NCBI GenBank assembly: GCA_963669155.1
Contig: OZ022583.1
Location: 5,656,658 to 5,720,657 of the forward strand
DNA length: 64,000 nucleotides
Direction: 5' to 3'
From: Arbacia lixula
Taxonomy: Eukaryota > Echinodermata > Echinoidea > Arbacioida > Arbaciidae
Position numbers and translations under genes: made by a program. Positions 30,076 to 48,902 of this stretch are shown here, one piece after another (within the stretch, counting starts at the first letter, position 1; every line of letters begins with the position of its first letter). Under the pieces are notes generated by a model. That model was not told the DNA's origin and did no database searches. It saw only the letters and a list, made by a program, of their open reading frames with translations.

Positions 30076-31790
30076 GAAAGCATTACGTGATAGACTTGAT
30101 GAAGACCCTTCTGATGTGGAGCGAGATTCCATGACTGAAGAGGCAAAACTGCTGTGGCATCACCAAAAGAATCTCATCCTGAATAATGGAGTTCTCCTCA
30201 AACAGTGTACTCTTTCCGGTGAAAAGTACTTACAGCTAGTCTTGCCTACCAGCCATCGGAAACAAGCCTTGATGCACCTCGGACTTGACAGGACCCTTGA
30301 CCTTGTGCGTACACGATTCCACTGGCCTAGGATGGGATTAGATGTAGAAAACCACTGCTCCTCTTGTCCCCGATGCATCCGACGAAAGAGGGGAGCACTG
30401 GAGGCTGCTTCCCTGGTTAGCATCCAAAAGACAACTCCAATAAAAGTAGTCTGCATCGACTTACTCTCCCTAGAGCCAGACAAATCTAACACACATAACA
30501 TACTTGTAGGGACCGACCACTTCACCAAGTATGCACAAGCATTCCCCACCAAGGACCAGAAGGCGTGCACAGTTGCGAAGGTACTCTGGGAGTCGTACTT
30601 TGTACATTACAGATTTCCAGAACGGTTACACTATGATCAAGGTAGAGATTTTGAATCTCAGCTGATCAAGGAAGTGTGTGTTGCCTATGGTATCAAGAAG
30701 ACCAGAAAGATCCCATATCACCCTCAAGGAAATGGACAGTGCAAGCGCTTCAATCAGACACTGCTCGAGCTGCTCGGCACCCTTGAGGATGGAAAGAAGT
30801 GTAACAGAATTGGTAGAGCTATAGGAGCTGGTGTTTATACACACACCGGTATTGCTGTGTGGATAAAGAGTTGGGATGCACGCACTCACATGCCTAGGGC
30901 AGTTCGCTGTGTGTGCTGTGATACACATACTGTAGGTATACCCAAAGGACTGTGCAGTGTCAGCGAAACAATTACGGGGGACAGGTATATAGAGATTTGT
31001 GTGTAGGGGAAAGGGAGAGTCTCGCTCTTGCCTTCGGAGCGAACACTTGCAGCTGTAGCCCATGCTCCTTGGTTTCCCTTATCAGTACTTCTAGATAAAA
31101 GTGTAATGGGCTCAGCTAGGTACCGACTACGGTAGTAAACCTGAAGTGTACTCTCACCATTTACGTATTGCTGCTCATCAGTCAATAAAGATCTACTTTC
31201 ATGGTACGTACATATCTGGTGTTACTTTCTCCTTTGTGGAGTATTAGTTGGAAACAAGAGTGATAATGACCTCTCTAATGGTGCATGGGATGGATGAAGA
31301 ATGATCGATGAATGCTCAATGTGATTGTGATGTGCCCTGAACAGGATACACAGGCGGCCCGGTCTCGTTACAGAAGGGAAGTTGGCAAAAGCATGTGGGA
31401 CACCTTGTGCATGCCTACAACTGTACAAGGCATAGCAGCACTGGGATGTCGCTATACTTTCTGATGTTCGGAAGGGAACCCAGGCTCCCTGTCGATGTCA
31501 TCTTTGGGCTACCCACAAGAGAAGGAAACGCCAACCAAGGCAGGTGCACTGAGGTTCTGAAGGAAAGACTCCATCGAGCACAAGACTTAGCTGGCGCCGT
31601 GATGGAGAAAGCCTCATTAGCCGCACATCAACGCTATGACAAACATGTTCGAGACCACGCCCTTGAAGTTAGAGATCAAGACTTGTGCGACGAGTAGGCT
31701 TCAAAGGACCACATAAACTAGAAGACATGTGGAGCAAGGATGTATATGAAGTCCTGCGATGAATGACCACCGCAGTATTACAGGTTTTTG
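30076..31790 (+). pseudogene. Ty3/Gypsy integrase remnant, split by a solo LTR
   Basis: Reading from 30116 there is a zinc-binding CSSCPRC segment with the preceding FHWPRM; the first His of the HHCC finger is lost. The core has CIDLLSLEP (first Asp), YDQGRDFES (second Asp) and PYHPQGNGQCKRFNQTLL, where the third catalytic acid (Glu in the family) is Lys. After the inserted LTR the domain continues at 31382-31697 with GHLVHAYNCT, FGREPRLPVDV and a C-terminal tail, then fades near 31790. No reverse transcriptase, gag or flanking LTRs of its own were seen. Missing residues and the insertion show it is inactive. Confidence 0.85.
30801..31372. mobile_element. Solo LTR (572 bp) inserted in the Gypsy integrase
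   Basis: Starts TGTAACAGAATTGG and ends CCGGTCTCGTTACA, i.e. TG...CA with a TGTAAC/GTTACA inverted end. It is flanked by GAAG on both sides (30797-30800, 31373-31376), and the integrase reading frame is collinear across it, so the boundaries are exact. An AATAAAG hexamer near 31185 is the likely poly(A) signal in + orientation. It has no internal genes. Confidence 0.85.
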
Positions 31791-32372: not shown

Positions 32373-35348
32373 TTAACAGTTTCCTGTTGAAACTGAAAGC
32401 TCCATTAAATACTTCATTAACAGCTTTCGGAAAGCAACTCTAGTTTTCATTTCTCTAATGTCTTTTGGGATACGATTCCATAATTTTACTCCAATGTAAG
32501 ATATTGAAAATTGGCCTTGTGTTGTTTTACACTTAGGTATATATAGCTGTCCCTGGTCTTTTCCTCTAGTGGCAAACCTGTGATCTATCACTTGACAATA
32601 TTGTATTAGAGTGTGAGGAAGGTTGTTATTAACTAAATCATATACAAAAGTTGAAACCGACAAGAAGTGTAGATTGTAAACATCCAGTATCTTTAACTTG
32701 TGGAACAAAGGTCTTGAATGAGCTCTCCATGAACTAAAGGTAATTGCTCTCATTGCCATCTTTTGGGAATACAATATGCATTTTAAGTTAGTCTCGTAGG
32801 TACTTCCCCACACTTCAATGCCATATGAAAGGTGTGGCTGTATTAACCCCTGATACAACATCAATAATACATTCTGTGGGACAAAATGCCTGAGTCTGAA
32901 TAAAATACCAACCTTTTTACGAACATTCTTATTAACCATTTTGATATGTTCTCCCCATGTAAGGTGATTATCAATTTGAAGTCCTACAAATGAGGCCATA
33001 TTTACCTCAGATATTTCTGAGCCAGATATTTCAAGAGCACCGTTAACCTTCACAGATCGTCTTCTACTTCTTATCAACATGTAACTAGTTTTCTTTAGGT
33101 TGATTGTGACCTTGTTAGCATAACACCATGTCTGGACTTTTTCCAAATGCGTATTAACTAAGTGCATATCAATCTCCGCTTTGCCCTCCTCAAAAGTGTG
33201 GAACAGATTTGAATCGTCAGCAAACAATCTGAAATTAAAGTACTGAGTGGAATTAGGCAAGTCATTAATATAAATCAAAAAGAGTGTTGGTCCCAGCACT
33301 GATCCTTGCGGGACTCCACATGATATATTCAAATTAGATGACATTGTATCTTTGTATTTTACAAACTGATGTCTGTTGCAAAGGTAGTCTGCAAACCATT
33401 GTAAAGCGACACCACGTATTCCATAGTGTGATAGCTTTCTTAGGAGAATGTTGTGGTTTATGGTATCGAATGCCTTCTGAAAATCAATAAAGAGCCCCAG
33501 TGTGATTTTCCCATCATCCAGTGATTTCAAAAGGGTATTTGTTAAATTGATAATCGATAACTTTGTACTATAATTTTTACGAAAGCCATATTGATGTTGC
33601 TGCAAAATATTGTTAACTTCTAAAAAATCCATTAACCTATTATTAACAATCTTTTCAAAAATTTTCCCTAAAACTGGCAATATTGAGATTGGCCTATAAT
33701 TTCCTGGAACTTCTTTGGACCCTTTTTTGTAAACAGGTATTACTTTAGCTATCTTTAAAGCATCAGGAAATTTGCCTTCTTGTAATGATAAATTGATAAT
33801 GTGAGTCAATGGTGTCGTTATATAAACTGCAGCATCTTTTACGAGTCGTGCAGGCAGCATATCATACCCACATGCTTTCCTCATATCGGTAGCATGTAGG
33901 TGATTTAACATTTCATTTTCTGTCACTGGCTTCCAAAATAATGACCTATTTTGCTTAGACCCCAAATACGATGTACAATCTGTATCGATTACTGGTATTT
34001 CATCTGCTAGATTTGGTCCTACACTTACAAAGAATTGATTAAATTCAGAAGCAATTTCACAATCATCACATGTAGTTGTACTTTCTCCATTTCGTACAAT
34101 TCTTAACTTCTGAACATCAGTTGATTTTGTTGAGGCATTTACTCGATTTAGTAACTCATTGATAGTCTTCCATGTTTTACTGGTATCGTGTTTGTTTTGT
34201 TCGAAAATATCACTATAATATTTACGTTTAGCATTTTTAATAACTAAGGTCAGGGTATTTCTATATCTTTTATAACTTCCCTCATATTGCACATCAAAAT
34301 TTGATGATTTATATTTAGAGTACAATTTGTGCTTTTTCCCTATGGATTTAAGGATCCCTTTCGTTATCCACGGTTTTTTAGCTACATTTTTCTTGTTCAT
34401 AGACTTTTGTGTGAACACAGGGGCATGTTTATCACAAATATTTTTAAACATATCAAAAAAGTTGGCATAACACTTGTGAATGTCATTTTCCTTGAGTACA
34501 AGATCCCATCTGATTTTGGCCAGATCTTCATGAAACTCTTCAATTTTGTAATTCTTAAAGGTACGACTTGTTACTTTCTTTTGGTAACCTTTGTTTCCAG
34601 ATTTACAATTTTCAAAAACCACAAATATAGGAAAGTGGTCAGATACATCAGTTTCTAGAACACCCGCATGGATAGTAGAAGCATTGAAATTGGTGTAAAC
34701 ATGATCAATTAGAGAAGATGATGAATTTGTTACTCTTGTCGGTGATGCAATCAATTGTTGTAAACCTGTACAATTCAACGCTGTTGCAAATTGTTCAACC
34801 TTGTCCTCCTTATCCAGCAAATCAATATTAAAATCTCCCAACAGAAAACAATTTGTCTTATCTAGTTTTAGATCTGCTAGTACATTTAACAGGCTATCTT
34901 GAAATTCGGAAACATCAGTGTTGGGTTTCCGATATATTATACCAACAACAACTCTTTTTTTATTGACGCTAATCTCAAGCCAAAGGCTTTCTGCATGTAA
35001 TAATTCATATTCTAGAATATTATACTTAAGGGATGAACGAATGTAAGCTCCCACTCCACCTCCTCTCGCGTTATCCTTCCTACATTTTACCTCGAGTGTA
35101 TATCCTGACATACCTAGCATTGCTGTGTTACGTACATTCCATACTTCTGATAAACAGATAATGTCAAATTTGGATTTCAAAGTGTGGTCGTATAAAAAAG
35201 ACAATTCATCAAAATTCTTCCCCAATGATCGAATGTTAACATGAGTCAAAGAAAACGAATTTGTTACCGGTTGGTGTAAAGTTTCATCAAATGAATCTGG
35301 AGTTAAATTATAATTTAGAACCTCAAAATCTGAATCATGGTCATCCAT
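32373..35348 (-). CDS. LINE ORF2: APE endonuclease and reverse transcriptase
   Basis: 991 residues without a stop. Endonuclease: THVNIRSL (~35-42), CLSEVW with E68, GGGVGAYI, LLGDFNIDLL (D172, N174) and VSDHFPIF (D237, H238). Reverse transcriptase: VIPVYKKGSK and NYRPISILPVLGKIFEKI (~536-567), GLFIDFQKAFDTINH (D622), GVPQGSVLGPTLFLIYINDL (~678-697) and FRLFADDSNLF with the catalytic FADD at 709-712. The C-terminal region has SYGIEVWGS and LWNRIPKDIR. All catalytic residues I can check are present, so the protein could be active; ATG at 35346-35348 is chosen as the first Met, 43 bp after the ORF1 stop. It copies the element's RNA into DNA at a nicked target. Confidence 0.9.
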   Translation of the reverse strand: MDDHDSDFEVLNYNLTPDSFDETLHQPVTNSFSLTHVNIRSLGKNFDELSFLYDHTLKSKFDIICLSEVWNVRNTAMLGMSGYTLEVKCRKDNARGGGVGAYIRSSLKYNILEYELLHAESLWLEISVNKKRVVVGIIYRKPNTDVSEFQDSLLNVLADLKLDKTNCFLLGDFNIDLLDKEDKVEQFATALNCTGLQQLIASPTRVTNSSSSLIDHVYTNFNASTIHAGVLETDVSDHFPIFVVFENCKSGNKGYQKKVTSRTFKNYKIEEFHEDLAKIRWDLVLKENDIHKCYANFFDMFKNICDKHAPVFTQKSMNKKNVAKKPWITKGILKSIGKKHKLYSKYKSSNFDVQYEGSYKRYRNTLTLVIKNAKRKYYSDIFEQNKHDTSKTWKTINELLNRVNASTKSTDVQKLRIVRNGESTTTCDDCEIASEFNQFFVSVGPNLADEIPVIDTDCTSYLGSKQNRSLFWKPVTENEMLNHLHATDMRKACGYDMLPARLVKDAAVYITTPLTHIINLSLQEGKFPDALKIAKVIPVYKKGSKEVPGNYRPISILPVLGKIFEKIVNNRLMDFLEVNNILQQHQYGFRKNYSTKLSIINLTNTLLKSLDDGKITLGLFIDFQKAFDTINHNILLRKLSHYGIRGVALQWFADYLCNRHQFVKYKDTMSSNLNISCGVPQGSVLGPTLFLIYINDLPNSTQYFNFRLFADDSNLFHTFEEGKAEIDMHLVNTHLEKVQTWCYANKVTINLKKTSYMLIRSRRRSVKVNGALEISGSEISEVNMASFVGLQIDNHLTWGEHIKMVNKNVRKKVGILFRLRHFVPQNVLLMLYQGLIQPHLSYGIEVWGSTYETNLKCILYSQKMAMRAITFSSWRAHSRPLFHKLKILDVYNLHFLSVSTFVYDLVNNNLPHTLIQYCQVIDHRFATRGKDQGQLYIPKCKTTQGQFSISYIGVKLWNRIPKDIREMKTRVAFRKLLMKYLMELSVSTGNC

Positions 35349-44943: not shown

Positions 44944-47900
44944 ATGATGCCTATTCACACGCTGCTCCTGTTGGTGATCACTCTCAGTTTAAATGGAGGT
45001 GTGTTTGGCCAAACATTCCTCATAGAATCCGCAGACCAGGAGGTTGCCGAGGGAGATGATGTGACATTCCAATGTAAGGTCAGCCACCTAGCGCATAATC
45101 AGGTTGTGATCTGGCTCGCCCTTGGAGTCCAAGTTACCACAGGAACGGCCGCCATCCGCCAACGTCCTGGAGGAGGGAATTACGCGGTCACAGGGAATGG
45201 TGCGACCATCTTTAATCTGCTCCTGGAGAATGTCCAGACGTCCGATGAGGGGAACTACCAGTGTAAGGTGGTCAACAGACACCAGCATCATACCATCATC
45301 ATCTCTTCTAGAATAGCAGTCCTCATCGTCAACTTCTTACCAGGCCCCCACGATCCAAGATGCACCCCAGAGACCACTACGGTACACGTCTCTGATTCCG
45401 TCACCATCACCTGCAACACCAAAGCTGGTAAGCCCCCTGTCACACTTGTGTGGACTCGTAACGATGGGATGTTAATTGACAACAGGAATACCACACTGAC
45501 CGACAGGATGCTCCGTCGCACTCTGACGTACACTTTCATTGCCACGCACGACGACAACGGGGCTGTGTTCATCTGCACGTCAACCAGCATGAAGTTCCCT
45601 CATTATCGGAAGACGTGCATGGTGATCGTCACTGTGGAATTTCCTCCGAAGGTCAACGTTACCACCAACCCTCCAGACCCAGGTGAAGATTTCCCGAGCT
45701 ATAACTGCACAGCCCTTGCGAGCCCCGACCCCTTGCTTCCCTTCCAGTGGGTCATCGACCCGCCTTTCCCGGACACAACTTTCCTCCTCTCACAGGATGG
45801 TATGATTCTCTCTTTTGATGCTAAGCCAGTGTGTCGCGAGGTGACCACAGGGACTTGCATTGTGACCAACACAAAAGGCAGTGGGAATGACTCGACCATC
45901 ATCTGTGAGCCACTGCCCACCACCATTTCACCTTTCACCTCCAGGATCGCTGGAGAAAGAGTGGATGATAACGACAAGACGGTCATCATCGTTCTCGTCA
46001 TCCTGTTCCTGTTCCTGCTCCTAGCACTGTTACTCTGCTTCCTCTGCCGCAAGAACCAGACTGTGATACGGGAAAGGTTAATAGGGGGCCCGCCGTCCAA
46101 CATCAACATCACGGTTGACCCTCACATCAGCATCAACATCAATGGAGCAGAGACCATAGCCAAAGGACATGTCAAAGGGGAAGGAGAGCATGACAACCTG
46201 GCTGTGAATGCTGTGGAAGAGGAAGGCCTATACTTGGATATGGGTGCCGTCAAGGCCAAGAACTACCAGGCAGATTATACGGTCACCAAGTCTTCGGCTG
46301 CCCTGTCTGCAAGTGCACCACCCCAGGGAGAAGAGCCTGAGGACCTCTACATCGATGGCTTTGAAGTGCATGATGGCGTCCACAGCGCATCATCGGGACA
46401 GTACCCCAGCCCGGTTATCCAGCCAGCAGCTGCACCAAAAGCCAGTGGGTTTTCCAAAATGAGGTTTGTGAATGCCCTGAAGAGCGGGCTCACCTTCAGG
46501 AAGAGGGCACCCCACAAGGAGAATCATGACGACTTCAACATGGACAACCCCAGGAATGATTATGAGCGCTACAAAAAGGGGGAGGTCAACGTCTACGAGG
46601 GTCTGAATGTGAGGTCTGGCGGCAATGGAGATGATGATAATGACAGTCTGGCAGATGAGAAGGTGGAAGCTCAGGTCAGATACTTGGCCAATGGTGAAGG
46701 GGCCTATGACCTTGCAGGGGCACTGAGGGCAAGGGCCCCAGCATCAGAATCTGAAGATCCTGTTGGCAACAGCTCTGAGAAATTTGCCAATGCTGACCTC
46801 TATGGGGCTGGGCAAGCTAACCCCAGCCAAAGCCGTCTTCAAAATGCACTTCTGAATGCTGAAGGAGATGGAGATACTATTGGGTCTGCTCAATCAATGA
46901 CGCGTGCTGGGAAGGGGAAAAATGACAAGGTTCGGCCGGAAAGTGAGATTTATACAGAAGCACAGTTGTACACCACACCACCTCCGGCCAAAGGAAACAA
47001 CAAGAAAGGCCTTGGCAAGAAAGTGGCACTTCTGTTTGGCAACATCAAGCAGGGCTTCCAAGGTGAAGGAGGTTTGTCAGCTGTGCCAGAAATGAACGTG
47101 GCCAAGGCATCCACCAGTGTCCTCAAAGACAACACAAGGAATGCCAGCTCGGTGAATATGCCAGACGGGGACGCAGGGGGGGAGATTTACCAGGATGCCA
47201 AGATGTACGGTGGTATCGGAGAGCCCTCCAGCAACATCAACGTCAGGAGGAGTATGGAGATTCCTCAGGATGTGAATGCGGAAGGTGGTGGGTTCGGTAA
47301 GCTTGTGCAGCAAGCAGGTCCGGAGGCAAGGAGAGCCGGGATGGGGCTAAACAACGTCAATGCACCCGGAGACGATGACAATGGTGAGCTGTACGAGGCC
47401 CCAACTTTGTATGAGGGCGCTAAACCGACACCGGTGAAGAGAGCCGGAATGGGGCTAAACAACGTCAATACACCCGGAGACGATGGCAATGGTGAGCTGT
47501 ACGAGGCCCCAACTTTGTATAAGGGCGCTAAACCGGCACCGATAAAGAGAGCCGGAATGGGGCAAAACAACGTCAATACATCTGGAGACGATGACAACGG
47601 TGAGCTCTACGAGGCCCCAACTTTGTATGAGGGCGCTAAACCGACACCTATAAAGAGAGCTGGGATGGGGCTAAACAACATCAACACACCTGGAGTGGAT
47701 GATAACGGTGAGCTCTACGAGGCTCCAACTATGTATGAGGGCACTAAACCGACACCGATAAAGAGAGCTGGGATGGGGCTAAACAACATCAACACACCTG
47801 GAGTGAATGACAACGATGAACTCTATGAGGCCCCAACCACGAGTTGGTCCGACACCCGTAGTGGCCACATTAAAGATCAGACTGGAGCCCTGAAAAATAG

Positions 47901-48621
47901 TAATGTGATCGACCCGACACTGGTGAAGAGAGCTGGGATGGGGCTTAACAACGTTAACAAACCCAGACAGGACGATAATGATGATCTCTACGAGGCCCCA
48001 ACATTGTACGAGGGTGCCAAACCAAGTTCGTCCAATATCCGTAGTGGTGTTCTCGTAGATCAGGACGACGACCCCGATGACAGTGATATGATATACGAGG
48101 AAGCCGTGTTCCACGCGGGTCAAGTCATCACGACTGAGTCTTGTCGCACCGAGTCTAAGAGTGCACTCATTACAGACAACAAAGATGATGATGATCTTGA
48201 TGAGTCCGCGTCTCCTCCGGAAGACGAGAGCATCTACGCCGAAGCCGCTTTCCACGTCGGAGATACAGCGCCCTCGTCCATGACATTCGGCCAACAGAGC
48301 AAGCCCGTTCCAGCGGGGAGAGGAGGGGCTGTGGGCAAGAAGACCGCCACGCTCATCAACAACGACGACGATGTAGATTTGTCCCAGTTTGCCGAATCTG
48401 GCGACAACGATGAAAGAGGGGGTGATAATGATTCAGATGGTGATGAGCAGCTATACATGGAGGCGACTTTCCATGGGTCGATGGGCGGCGCTGGGTGGAC
48501 CATCGGTCCAGCAAATATGGAGGCTAGAAGACCGCCAGTCGCTAGTCCAAGGGTGCATAAGAAGGTCGAGCACACAAAGTCGGCCACCATAATGAGAAAT
48601 GATGATGAAGACGAGTTTTGA
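44944..48621 (+). CDS. Single-pass Ig-domain receptor with tyrosine-module cytoplasmic tail
   Basis: 1225 codons without an intron from tandem Met codons at 44944; the frame also opens at a TTG at 44926, which is not a plausible start. Signal peptide: residues 1-22 (IHTLLLLVITLSLNGGVFG). Ig-like domains: V-type with C44, W57 and DEGNYQC (C107); second with C157, W170 and C211; third weaker, with C255, W269 and later Cys 305/321. N-glycosylation sequons lie at 182, 238, 254 and 315. Transmembrane: about 347-368, then basic RKNQ. The tail is 857 residues, acidic and probably disordered, with about a dozen [L/I]Y-x-[E/D/A]-[A/P]-x-[L/M/F]-[Y/H] modules such as LYEAPTLYEG, IYTEAQLYTT, IYQDAKMYGG and MIYEEAVFHAG, plus YEGL and YDLA. 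The first Ig domain (ADQEVAEGDDVTFQCKV) recalls nephrin/Kirrel-like proteins. The role is inferred: cell-surface recognition with phosphotyrosine-dependent SH2 recruitment. No named family was identified. Confidence 0.9.
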   Translation: MMPIHTLLLLVITLSLNGGVFGQTFLIESADQEVAEGDDVTFQCKVSHLAHNQVVIWLALGVQVTTGTAAIRQRPGGGNYAVTGNGATIFNLLLENVQTSDEGNYQCKVVNRHQHHTIIISSRIAVLIVNFLPGPHDPRCTPETTTVHVSDSVTITCNTKAGKPPVTLVWTRNDGMLIDNRNTTLTDRMLRRTLTYTFIATHDDNGAVFICTSTSMKFPHYRKTCMVIVTVEFPPKVNVTTNPPDPGEDFPSYNCTALASPDPLLPFQWVIDPPFPDTTFLLSQDGMILSFDAKPVCREVTTGTCIVTNTKGSGNDSTIICEPLPTTISPFTSRIAGERVDDNDKTVIIVLVILFLFLLLALLLCFLCRKNQTVIRERLIGGPPSNINITVDPHISININGAETIAKGHVKGEGEHDNLAVNAVEEEGLYLDMGAVKAKNYQADYTVTKSSAALSASAPPQGEEPEDLYIDGFEVHDGVHSASSGQYPSPVIQPAAAPKASGFSKMRFVNALKSGLTFRKRAPHKENHDDFNMDNPRNDYERYKKGEVNVYEGLNVRSGGNGDDDNDSLADEKVEAQVRYLANGEGAYDLAGALRARAPASESEDPVGNSSEKFANADLYGAGQANPSQSRLQNALLNAEGDGDTIGSAQSMTRAGKGKNDKVRPESEIYTEAQLYTTPPPAKGNNKKGLGKKVALLFGNIKQGFQGEGGLSAVPEMNVAKASTSVLKDNTRNASSVNMPDGDAGGEIYQDAKMYGGIGEPSSNINVRRSMEIPQDVNAEGGGFGKLVQQAGPEARRAGMGLNNVNAPGDDDNGELYEAPTLYEGAKPTPVKRAGMGLNNVNTPGDDGNGELYEAPTLYKGAKPAPIKRAGMGQNNVNTSGDDDNGELYEAPTLYEGAKPTPIKRAGMGLNNINTPGVDDNGELYEAPTMYEGTKPTPIKRAGMGLNNINTPGVNDNDELYEAPTTSWSDTRSGHIKDQTGALKNSNVIDPTLVKRAGMGLNNVNKPRQDDNDDLYEAPTLYEGAKPSSSNIRSGVLVDQDDDPDDSDMIYEEAVFHAGQVITTESCRTESKSALITDNKDDDDLDESASPPEDESIYAEAAFHVGDTAPSSMTFGQQSKPVPAGRGGAVGKKTATLINNDDDVDLSQFAESGDNDERGGDNDSDGDEQLYMEATFHGSMGGAGWTIGPANMEARRPPVASPRVHKKVEHTKSATIMRNDDEDEF
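47332..48036 (+). repeat. 108-bp (36-residue) in-frame tandem repeat in the receptor tail
   Basis: Repeat starts at AGAGCC/AGAGCT: 47332, 47440, 47548, 47656, 47764, then 47929 after a 19-residue insertion. Each unit has RAGMGLNNVN, a PGDDDNGELY acidic spacer and LYEAPTLYEGAKPTP. The units are nearly identical at DNA level, indicating recent expansion; the fifth unit lost the second Tyr (LYEAPTTSW). Confidence 0.95.
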
Positions 48622-48902
48622 AATGCATGGTATCTATACAATAGTCATCGATTTCAATGTGGAGAAAAAGGACCCAAGAAGAGGTTTTCCTCTATCAGTA
48701 TTAAATCAACTTCAGTGTGTAGTTTTCACCAATTTGATCTACTCCTGCTCCTAGTATCTAGTGCAAAGTAAAAGTGATATATATTGTATGAAAGGATAGA
48801 ATTTCGAGAATGTGATGATATAATCATAAGGAGTGTTAACATATTGAAGATTGAGGTATTGATGATGGTGTAATTGGCATAAAACATTAACAAGGCAATA
48901 AA
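48622..48902 (+). other. 3' UTR of the Ig receptor gene, AATAAA at 48897-48902
   Basis: AT-rich flank starting at the TGA (48619-48621); an AATAAA hexamer 276-281 bases downstream is the first good poly(A) signal. Confidence 0.55.

Follow-up and report, generated by a model that had tools for sequence, protein, structure and literature searches.

We describe a single-exon gene of the echinoid Arbacia lixula whose product, on balance, we believe to be a type I receptor of a large intronless immunoglobulin (Ig) family, one in which binding of a partner would lead to phosphorylation of the tail and to multivalent docking of SH2 proteins there. A receptor whose likely docking sites have been multiplied by tandem duplication offers a natural case in which to test how valency affects SH2-driven clustering. 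In the same way, the surrounding family allows tests of how tyrosine-tailed Ig receptors arose outside vertebrates.

Results

The gene was found in a window of 64,000 nt, by which we mean the whole stretch of DNA that was analysed. A sea-star source, the bat star Patiria miniata, is rejected: a 25-base oligo given for that species in PMC10170166 has no match when up to 2 mismatches are allowed, and the order of the mitochondrial genes differs from that of sea stars. The frame and coordinates given by the initial annotation are correct: an ATG at 44944 is followed by 1,225 codons with no internal stop and by a TGA at 48619-48621, and the 300 nt upstream of the ATG hold seven in-frame stops. The single membrane span and the 857-residue tail reported there stand as well, with 29 tyrosines in the tail (Table 1). 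A pseudogene or unspliced noise is disfavoured, as the frame is intact and the repeat units discussed below show a silent-site bias. At Rfam gathering scores the whole window is without a match.

Table 1. Features of the receptor gene, in positions of the window
Feature	Position	Strand	Basis
Single-exon coding frame, 1,225 aa and stop	44944..48621	+	sequence
Signal peptide, about aa 1-22	44944..45009	+	sequence; cleavage site by eye
Ig domain 1, about aa 28-117	45025..45294	+	Pfam
Ig domain 2, about aa 138-229, extra Cys pair C140/C225	45355..45630	+	Pfam; alignments
Ig domain 3, degenerate, aa 233-321	45640..45906	+	paralogue profile; no match by Pfam alone
Transmembrane span, aa 347-368	45982..46047	+	sequence
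Tail, 857 aa, taken as cytoplasmic, 29 Tyr, 1 Cys	46048..48618	+	sequence
Module IYTEAQLY (Y670)	46948..46971	+	motif match
Module IYQDAKMY (Y749)	47185..47208	+	motif match
Five contiguous 36-aa units RAGMG...ELYEAPTLYEGAKP..., fifth diverging after LYEAPT; strict modules Y817, 853, 889, 925	47332..47871	+	
Sixth 36-aa unit, strict module Y1016	47929..48036	+	repeat comparison
Module IYEEAVFH (Y1051)	48091..48114	+	motif match
Module IYAEAAFH (Y1098)	48232..48255	+	motif match
Module LYMEATFH (Y1171)	48451..48474	+	motif match
AATAAA, possible polyadenylation signal, 275 nt past the stop	48897..48902	+	sequence; chance possible

The tail carries a recurrent tyrosine module. With the strict form of the motif taken from the initial annotation, [L/I]Y-x-[E/D/A]-[A/P]-x-[L/M/F]-[Y/H], there are ten copies (Y670, 749, 817, 853, 889, 925, 1016, 1051, 1098 and 1171), or six after collapsing repeats, and none of 5,000 shuffled tails reaches either count, so a chance origin of the motif is rejected. 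About a dozen had been claimed; ten are strict, and beyond these we find one truncated module (Y961) and three looser ones (Y430, 469 and 620). The residues picked out by that reading are borne out, with +3 divided evenly between Pro and Ala (five each) and the paired aromatic at +6 being Tyr in seven copies and His in three. For a comparison by column we chose ten modules, two from array units and three looser, leaving out Y551 and Y588. Position -1 is L/I in all ten, whereas +2 is D/E, +3 is A/P and +6 is Y/H in 7/10 each; acids occupy four to six of the ten at each of -2 to -6, and most linker columns are free to vary. Modules outside the array have diverged, and still keep the same motif.

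Shorter patterns are also in excess. YxxP occurs eight times in the tail against 1.9 expected, and YxxA ten times against 2.9, each reached by one of 5,000 shuffles. The YxxP excess depends on the array, because the three sites left after its collapse (1.15 expected; reached by 504 of 5,000 shuffles) are not above chance.

Half of the strict modules (5/10) lie in six units of 36 residues, five of which form an unbroken tandem array with a 108-nt period (4.7 copies, 91% matches). This array had been overlooked, and the variable spacing previously ascribed to the modules does not hold for these five contiguous units of the six, which are strictly periodic. The best explanation of the pattern is that tandem duplication of the unit raised the number of sites in the tail.

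Differences between the units show a silent bias, in counts for which the six units are not independent of each other. Across E-L-Y-E-A-P-T we count six silent changes and one that alters the protein (P=0.0012; pN/pS 0.05), pointing to selection on the protein. The 25 codons compared across the units give 15 silent and 14 changing (P=0.0006; pN/pS 0.22). Constraint is weak both in the 18 codons preceding ELYEAPT (nine silent, 13 changing; P=0.037) and in the second-tyrosine part, LYEGAKP, of five units (four silent, three changing; P=0.043).

These patterns bear on an unlikely alternative, that the tail acts as a scaffold or a spacer, with repeats that serve acidic charge, length or phase behaviour and tyrosines that are trafficking or structural residues, seldom phosphorylated. 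The composition of the tail, rich in Gly, Ala, Asp, Asn and Glu, is consistent with this, as is another element that recurs, K[ST]A-x-x-x-x-N, present three times near the C-terminus. However, conservation among the old modules centres on the tyrosine and its flanks. ELYEAPT is also the most constrained part over all six units, although the same is not true of a wider stretch in units 1-4 alone, where pN/pS is 0.53 in GELYEAPTLYEGAKP versus 0.26 in the preceding stretch.

Two genome searches gave 42 places belonging to the family; 39 have open frames of 362 codons or more (16 of these known from frame lengths alone), and 22 lie on one contig. Among 23 paralogues that were fetched, 22 have a long single frame, and a membrane span is present in 21 of the 22. 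The receptor follows the same plan of single open frame, Ig ectodomain and membrane span. A single-exon Ig receptor is therefore not odd in this genome, and the initial view that a single coding exon is unusual for such a protein fails here; echinoderm KirrelL is described in the available part of PMC8903837 as intronless too.

The tail itself appears to stand alone. Searches of the genome for relatives of the tail (E up to 1, seven candidates scored) and of its last 186 residues (E up to 10) found none, and the exact degenerate tail pattern has three matches, all inside the gene itself. Homologues lacking the modules had been named as a finding that would count against the docking idea; within this genome that is partly the case, with no tail relative found and a looser [LIV]Y-x-[EDA]-[AP] present once each in four of 19 paralogue tails.

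Other tyrosine motifs are found in those tails. The 19 tails together have 14 ITIM-like motifs against 4.1 expected (0/1,000 shuffles reach 14) and three ITAM-like matches. The ITIM-like enrichment therefore suggests that tyrosine tails are a family habit. It also lends something to the quite unlikely proposal that the receptor belongs to the activating or inhibitory immune receptors of ITAM/ITIM type, with a tail that signals via Syk or SHP like those of vertebrate leukocyte receptors. The vertebrate proteins likewise join an Ig ectodomain to a tyrosine tail, and some paralogues here carry such motifs. The tail of this receptor, in contrast, has neither: the scan gives no ITAM (YxxI/L x6-8 YxxI/L), in agreement with the initial annotation, and no ITIM ([SIVL]xYxx[ILV]), while YxxI/L/V is found twice versus 4.25 times in shuffles, i.e. 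less often. A classical ITAM/ITIM identity for this tail is rejected.

The ectodomain was fairly described as three Ig-like domains. Two are clear by Pfam, each above the cut-off, while the third, unrecognised by Pfam alone, is degenerate and was found with a profile of the third domains of 15 paralogues (15.7 bits; best of 500 shuffles 7.3). The cysteine pair of the second domain is invariant in all 16 chosen rows of the family alignment; over 22 rows C140 is invariant and C225 is present in 90% or more. A tree of 16 ectodomains has none of its 13 inner branches well supported and is too weak for naming the nearest paralogue.

The best sequence scores for the ectodomain were, in order, to Robo1, SYG-2, contactin-2, SYG-1 and DSCAM, with Kirrel1 further down. 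A profile search of solved structures placed titin, DSCAM, carcinoembryonic antigen and Robo2 above SYG-2, and with 9,895 sequences matched it shows the Ig fold only. With Robo, SYG/Kirrel and contactin scoring best, the best explanation is that this is probably an ectodomain of the adhesion-receptor kind.

Since SYG-1, SYG-2 and Kirrel1 are among the proteins that it resembles, one may ask if this could be the KirrelL or IgTM of the species, an adhesion gene already known from skeletogenesis and not a recognition receptor. We regard this as very unlikely. KirrelL is an Ig superfamily member that, like this receptor, has a coding region without introns, in all echinoderms examined according to the available text of PMC8903837; IgTM, in that of PMC6768484, is a protein with Ig and transmembrane domains that regulates skeletal branching, and so shares Ig superfamily membership and the membrane domain. 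However, at least 38 other family places with long open frames are also candidates. In a comparison by description only, a repeated tyrosine tail is absent from what the available parts of these two papers say of either protein.

That the gene is young or decaying, and its array a functionless coding minisatellite that slippage is enlarging, is highly improbable, for despite the 108-nt array with 91% matches and the lack of any tail relative found in its own genome, the 1,225-codon frame is intact, the repeat units show silent bias and the diverged modules beyond the array retain the same motif.

Discussion

The suggestion of a multivalent SH2 docking tail, made in the initial annotation, is still the reading we favour, and the silent-site bias among the repeat units strengthens it; phosphorylation, the adaptor, the ligand and the role are what we infer. 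The protein would best be read as a receptor for adhesion or recognition whose tail is a multivalent dock made of phosphotyrosines, nearest in design to p130Cas and nephrin. In such a receptor the three-Ig ectodomain would bind a partner, be it on another cell, in a matrix or on a microbe. Clustering would then allow a kinase of the Src-family type to phosphorylate the acidic-[L/I]-Y sites of a presumably disordered tail, and the phosphotyrosines, many of them in Y-E-A-P and Y-x-[E/D]-A, could bring an SH2 adaptor to the tail in several copies. For the Y-E-A-P sites the first choice would be the Crk class, which could provide a bridge to actin and small GTPases.

A wider and rather doubtful conjecture concerns the family. 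The germline of echinoids may contain a repertoire of 39 or more Ig receptor genes without introns, roughly half on one chromosome, with a deeply diverged but shared ectodomain plan and gene-specific tails (ITIM-like, ITAM-like, very tyrosine-rich or, within this receptor, a tandem-amplified Cas-like array). This could be an independent invertebrate counterpart of the leukocyte receptors that come in activating and inhibitory pairs, and one of its members would be a receptor-scaffold fusion. Among the matches listed for echinoderm intronless, ITAM, ITIM, IgTM and single-exon receptors, the family is undescribed beyond KirrelL and IgTM in the text available, which does not prove its absence in print; the available parts of PMC11999971 and PMC13428168 do not mention such an intronless Ig family.

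Nephrin and Kirrel (SYG-2/SYG-1) resemble the receptor in the ectodomain, a similarity common also to Robo1, contactin-2 and DSCAM. Kirrel has five Ig domains and nephrin more, whereas the receptor has three and is encoded by an intronless gene. The nephrin tail, as the available text of PMC4238058 describes it, uses three phosphotyrosine sites, Fyn and Nck, and is a multivalent dock for an SH2 adaptor that drives actin. Its three sites are YDxV, unlike the ten strict sites of Y-x-[EDA]-[AP] type seen here, and none of the 29 tail tyrosines has D at +1 and V at +3.

To call the docking tail one of an unrecognised kind, as had been done, was too strong, because Y-E-A-P fits phospho-YxxP, the CRK/CRKL SH2 consensus, for which repeats are known; the accessible part of PMC5043372 describes 15 YxxP in p130Cas, together with Src and CRK, and choanoflagellate transmembrane proteins with cytosolic YxxP repeats. 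That said, half of the strict modules, those with Ala at +3, lie outside this consensus. The choanoflagellate proteins are likewise membrane proteins with several cytosolic YxxP sites, but their ectodomains differ, and we claim a likeness in design and not homology. The substrate domain of p130Cas/BCAR1 similarly has many repeated YxxP-type sites, of which our tail has eight, or three when collapsed, the latter not above chance. p130Cas is a focal adhesion protein with SH3 and FAT-like domains (PMC5043372, in the part available), whereas the protein here is a receptor without either, Pfam giving no match to SH3 or CAS_C at E up to 1. The same genome has a separate Cas-type gene, found as a single CAS_C match (E 1.8e-45).

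The receptor and its tyrosine modules

The reading frame of the receptor is intact over 1,225 codons. Sequence and Pfam bear out the single frame, the signal peptide (hydrophobic by eye), the one membrane span and the 857-residue tail, which holds 29 tyrosines and one cysteine. Of the three Ig-like domains in the initial annotation, two are matched by Pfam; the third has no Pfam match when searched alone and is recovered by a profile from the third domains of 15 paralogues (15.7 bits; the top of 500 shuffles was 7.3). Among solved structures, sequence comparison places the ectodomain nearest to Robo1 (3.4e-14), SYG-2, contactin-2, SYG-1 and DSCAM, which makes a role in adhesion or recognition likely, if unproved.

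The proposed array of tyrosine modules stands. The strict motif, [L/I]Y-x-[E/D/A]-[A/P]-x-[L/M/F]-[Y/H], occurs ten times in the tail and six times once repeats are collapsed, and each count was reached by 0 of 5,000 shuffled tails. Six 36-residue units hold five of the ten copies; the fifth unit diverges past LYEAPT and has none. Five units are contiguous (period 108 nt, 4.7 copies), therefore the array is in part a coding minisatellite. This had been missed, and the variable spacing described for the modules holds only outside it.

In ten hand-chosen modules (two from array units, three looser, with Y551 and Y588 left out), position -1 is Leu or Ile in all ten, and +2 is acidic, +3 Ala or Pro, and +6 Tyr or His in seven each; acids lie upstream of the tyrosine and linker columns are mostly variable. 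An acidic residue followed by Ile or Leu and then Tyr is a Src-like substrate context. ITAM and ITIM patterns were both absent from the receptor's tail, in agreement with the claim that it is no classical ITAM, and three approaches found no relatives of the tail in the same genome. The tail also repeats a second element, K-[ST]-A-x-x-x-x-N, which starts at residues 1072, 1133 and, near the C-terminus, 1212; by eye, acids come after it.

Coordinates of features in the window and at other loci
Feature	Location	Strand
Ig receptor frame	44944-48621	+
Second recurring tail element	48157-48618
Integrase-like frame	30116-31006	+
Endonuclease/reverse transcriptase frame, LINE-like	32373-35348	-
Serine-rich open frame	12-947
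Its upstream part, in adjoining DNA	L044:8770-9999
Tyrosine-rich paralogue	L021:1713-4022 (contig C1)
Paralogue with mucin-like repeats	L023:1664-4669 (contig C16)

Selection among repeat units

Under a simple site-count null, whose P values serve as guides since the units share history, distinct silent and changing differences across six units number 6 and 1 in the heptapeptide ELYEAPT (P=0.0012), 15 and 14 over 25 codons (P=0.0006), and 9 and 13 in the 18 codons preceding the heptapeptide (P=0.037); across five units they number 4 and 3 in LYEGAKP (P=0.043) and 17 and 26 over the whole 36 codons (P=0.01). When all six units are compared in pairs, pN/pS comes to 0.05 for the heptapeptide, 0.22 for the 25 codons and 0.29 for the first 18. 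Units 1-4 alone give 0.32 overall, 0.53 in GELYEAPTLYEGAKP and 0.26 in the stretch before GELYEAPTLYEGAKP, and do not set the module apart.

A possible docking tail

The tail is best read as a putative multivalent dock for phosphotyrosine-binding partners. Y-E-A-P matches the CRK/CRKL consensus, phospho-YxxP (PMC5043372). The same paper describes p130Cas, with 15 YxxP sites of which ten or more are phosphorylated by Src, and choanoflagellate transmembrane proteins with YxxP repeats. A separate Cas-type gene is kept in this genome. Two results weigh against this reading: collapsing the array brings YxxP down to a number that chance can explain (3 vs 1.15 expected), and Ala occupies +3 in half of the strict modules. 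In nephrin, an Ig receptor, clustering with Nck and with N-WASP is set by how many phosphotyrosines the receptor carries (PMC4238058). We judge the tail to use a known device in a new layout.

An intronless receptor family

Counting paralogues had been proposed beforehand as a check. The whole protein finds at least 24 places in the genome, itself included, and the ectodomain of one paralogue (L010) at least 39, of which 18 are new and known by match and frame only. Together these make at least 42 places, and in at least 39 of them a frame stays open for 362 codons or more, although in L025 a stretch of N inflates its length. One contig, C10, which is 26 Mb of 607 Mb, holds 22 of the 42. This family is possibly a more interesting finding than the receptor itself.

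A single exon is not unusual here, contrary to the initial annotation: 22 of the 23 other places from the first search carry one long frame that has a Met near its start, a structure compatible with further exons, and one (L032) has short frames broken as if by introns. KirrelL, likewise an intronless Ig protein, is known across echinoderms (PMC8903837), and the receptor's gene structure is therefore not new.

In an alignment of 16 selected members, all keep the Ig cysteines of domains one and two, and domain two has a further cysteine pair; their identity to the window ectodomain is 19-28%, and a tree of these 16 was too weak to resolve them. One member (L023) has long Thr/Ser/Asn-rich repeats before its membrane span, mucin-like by eye.

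Tails longer than 20 residues were compared in 19 of the 22 single-frame paralogues, dropping L015 (no membrane span), L017 (16 residues) and L031 (7 residues) and cutting L025 at its run of N. With eleven patterns tried, uncorrected, ITIM-like motifs number 14 vs 4.1 in shuffles (0/1,000), spread over nine tails; ITAM-like motifs 3 vs 0.3 (3/1,000), at a spacing of 6-12, wider than for the receptor's own tail; YxxP 27 vs 18 (20/1,000), eight of them in L021; and [LIV]Y-x-[EDA]-[AP] 4 vs 0.7 (2/1,000), one each in L010, L011, L018 and L024. YxxA, YxN and YxxM showed no enrichment over shuffles in these 19 tails. The tails of L013, L029, L016, L024 and L022 carry ITIM- or ITAM-like sequences, for example VYADL and VEYAKL, and the 375-residue tail of L021 has 50 tyrosines and repeated Y-x-Q-P stretches.

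Other features

The serine-rich frame continues from the adjoining upstream DNA with no stop at the join; its SH3-like end is weak at most, the best match to Src SH3 having E 0.61. On the mitochondrial contig (C590) Pfam identifies a COX1 gene, with AAA at an Asn position, as in the echinoderm code; this Asn position is conserved in animals. On the same strand as cox1 lie frames that we take by likeness for nad1, nad2 and cox2, with tRNA-Ile between the putative nad1 and nad2. This arrangement is that of urchins and sea cucumbers, not sea stars, and a 25-base oligo of the bat star Patiria miniata has no match in the genome with up to 2 mismatches allowed. We take this COX1 to be urchin-like in appearance.
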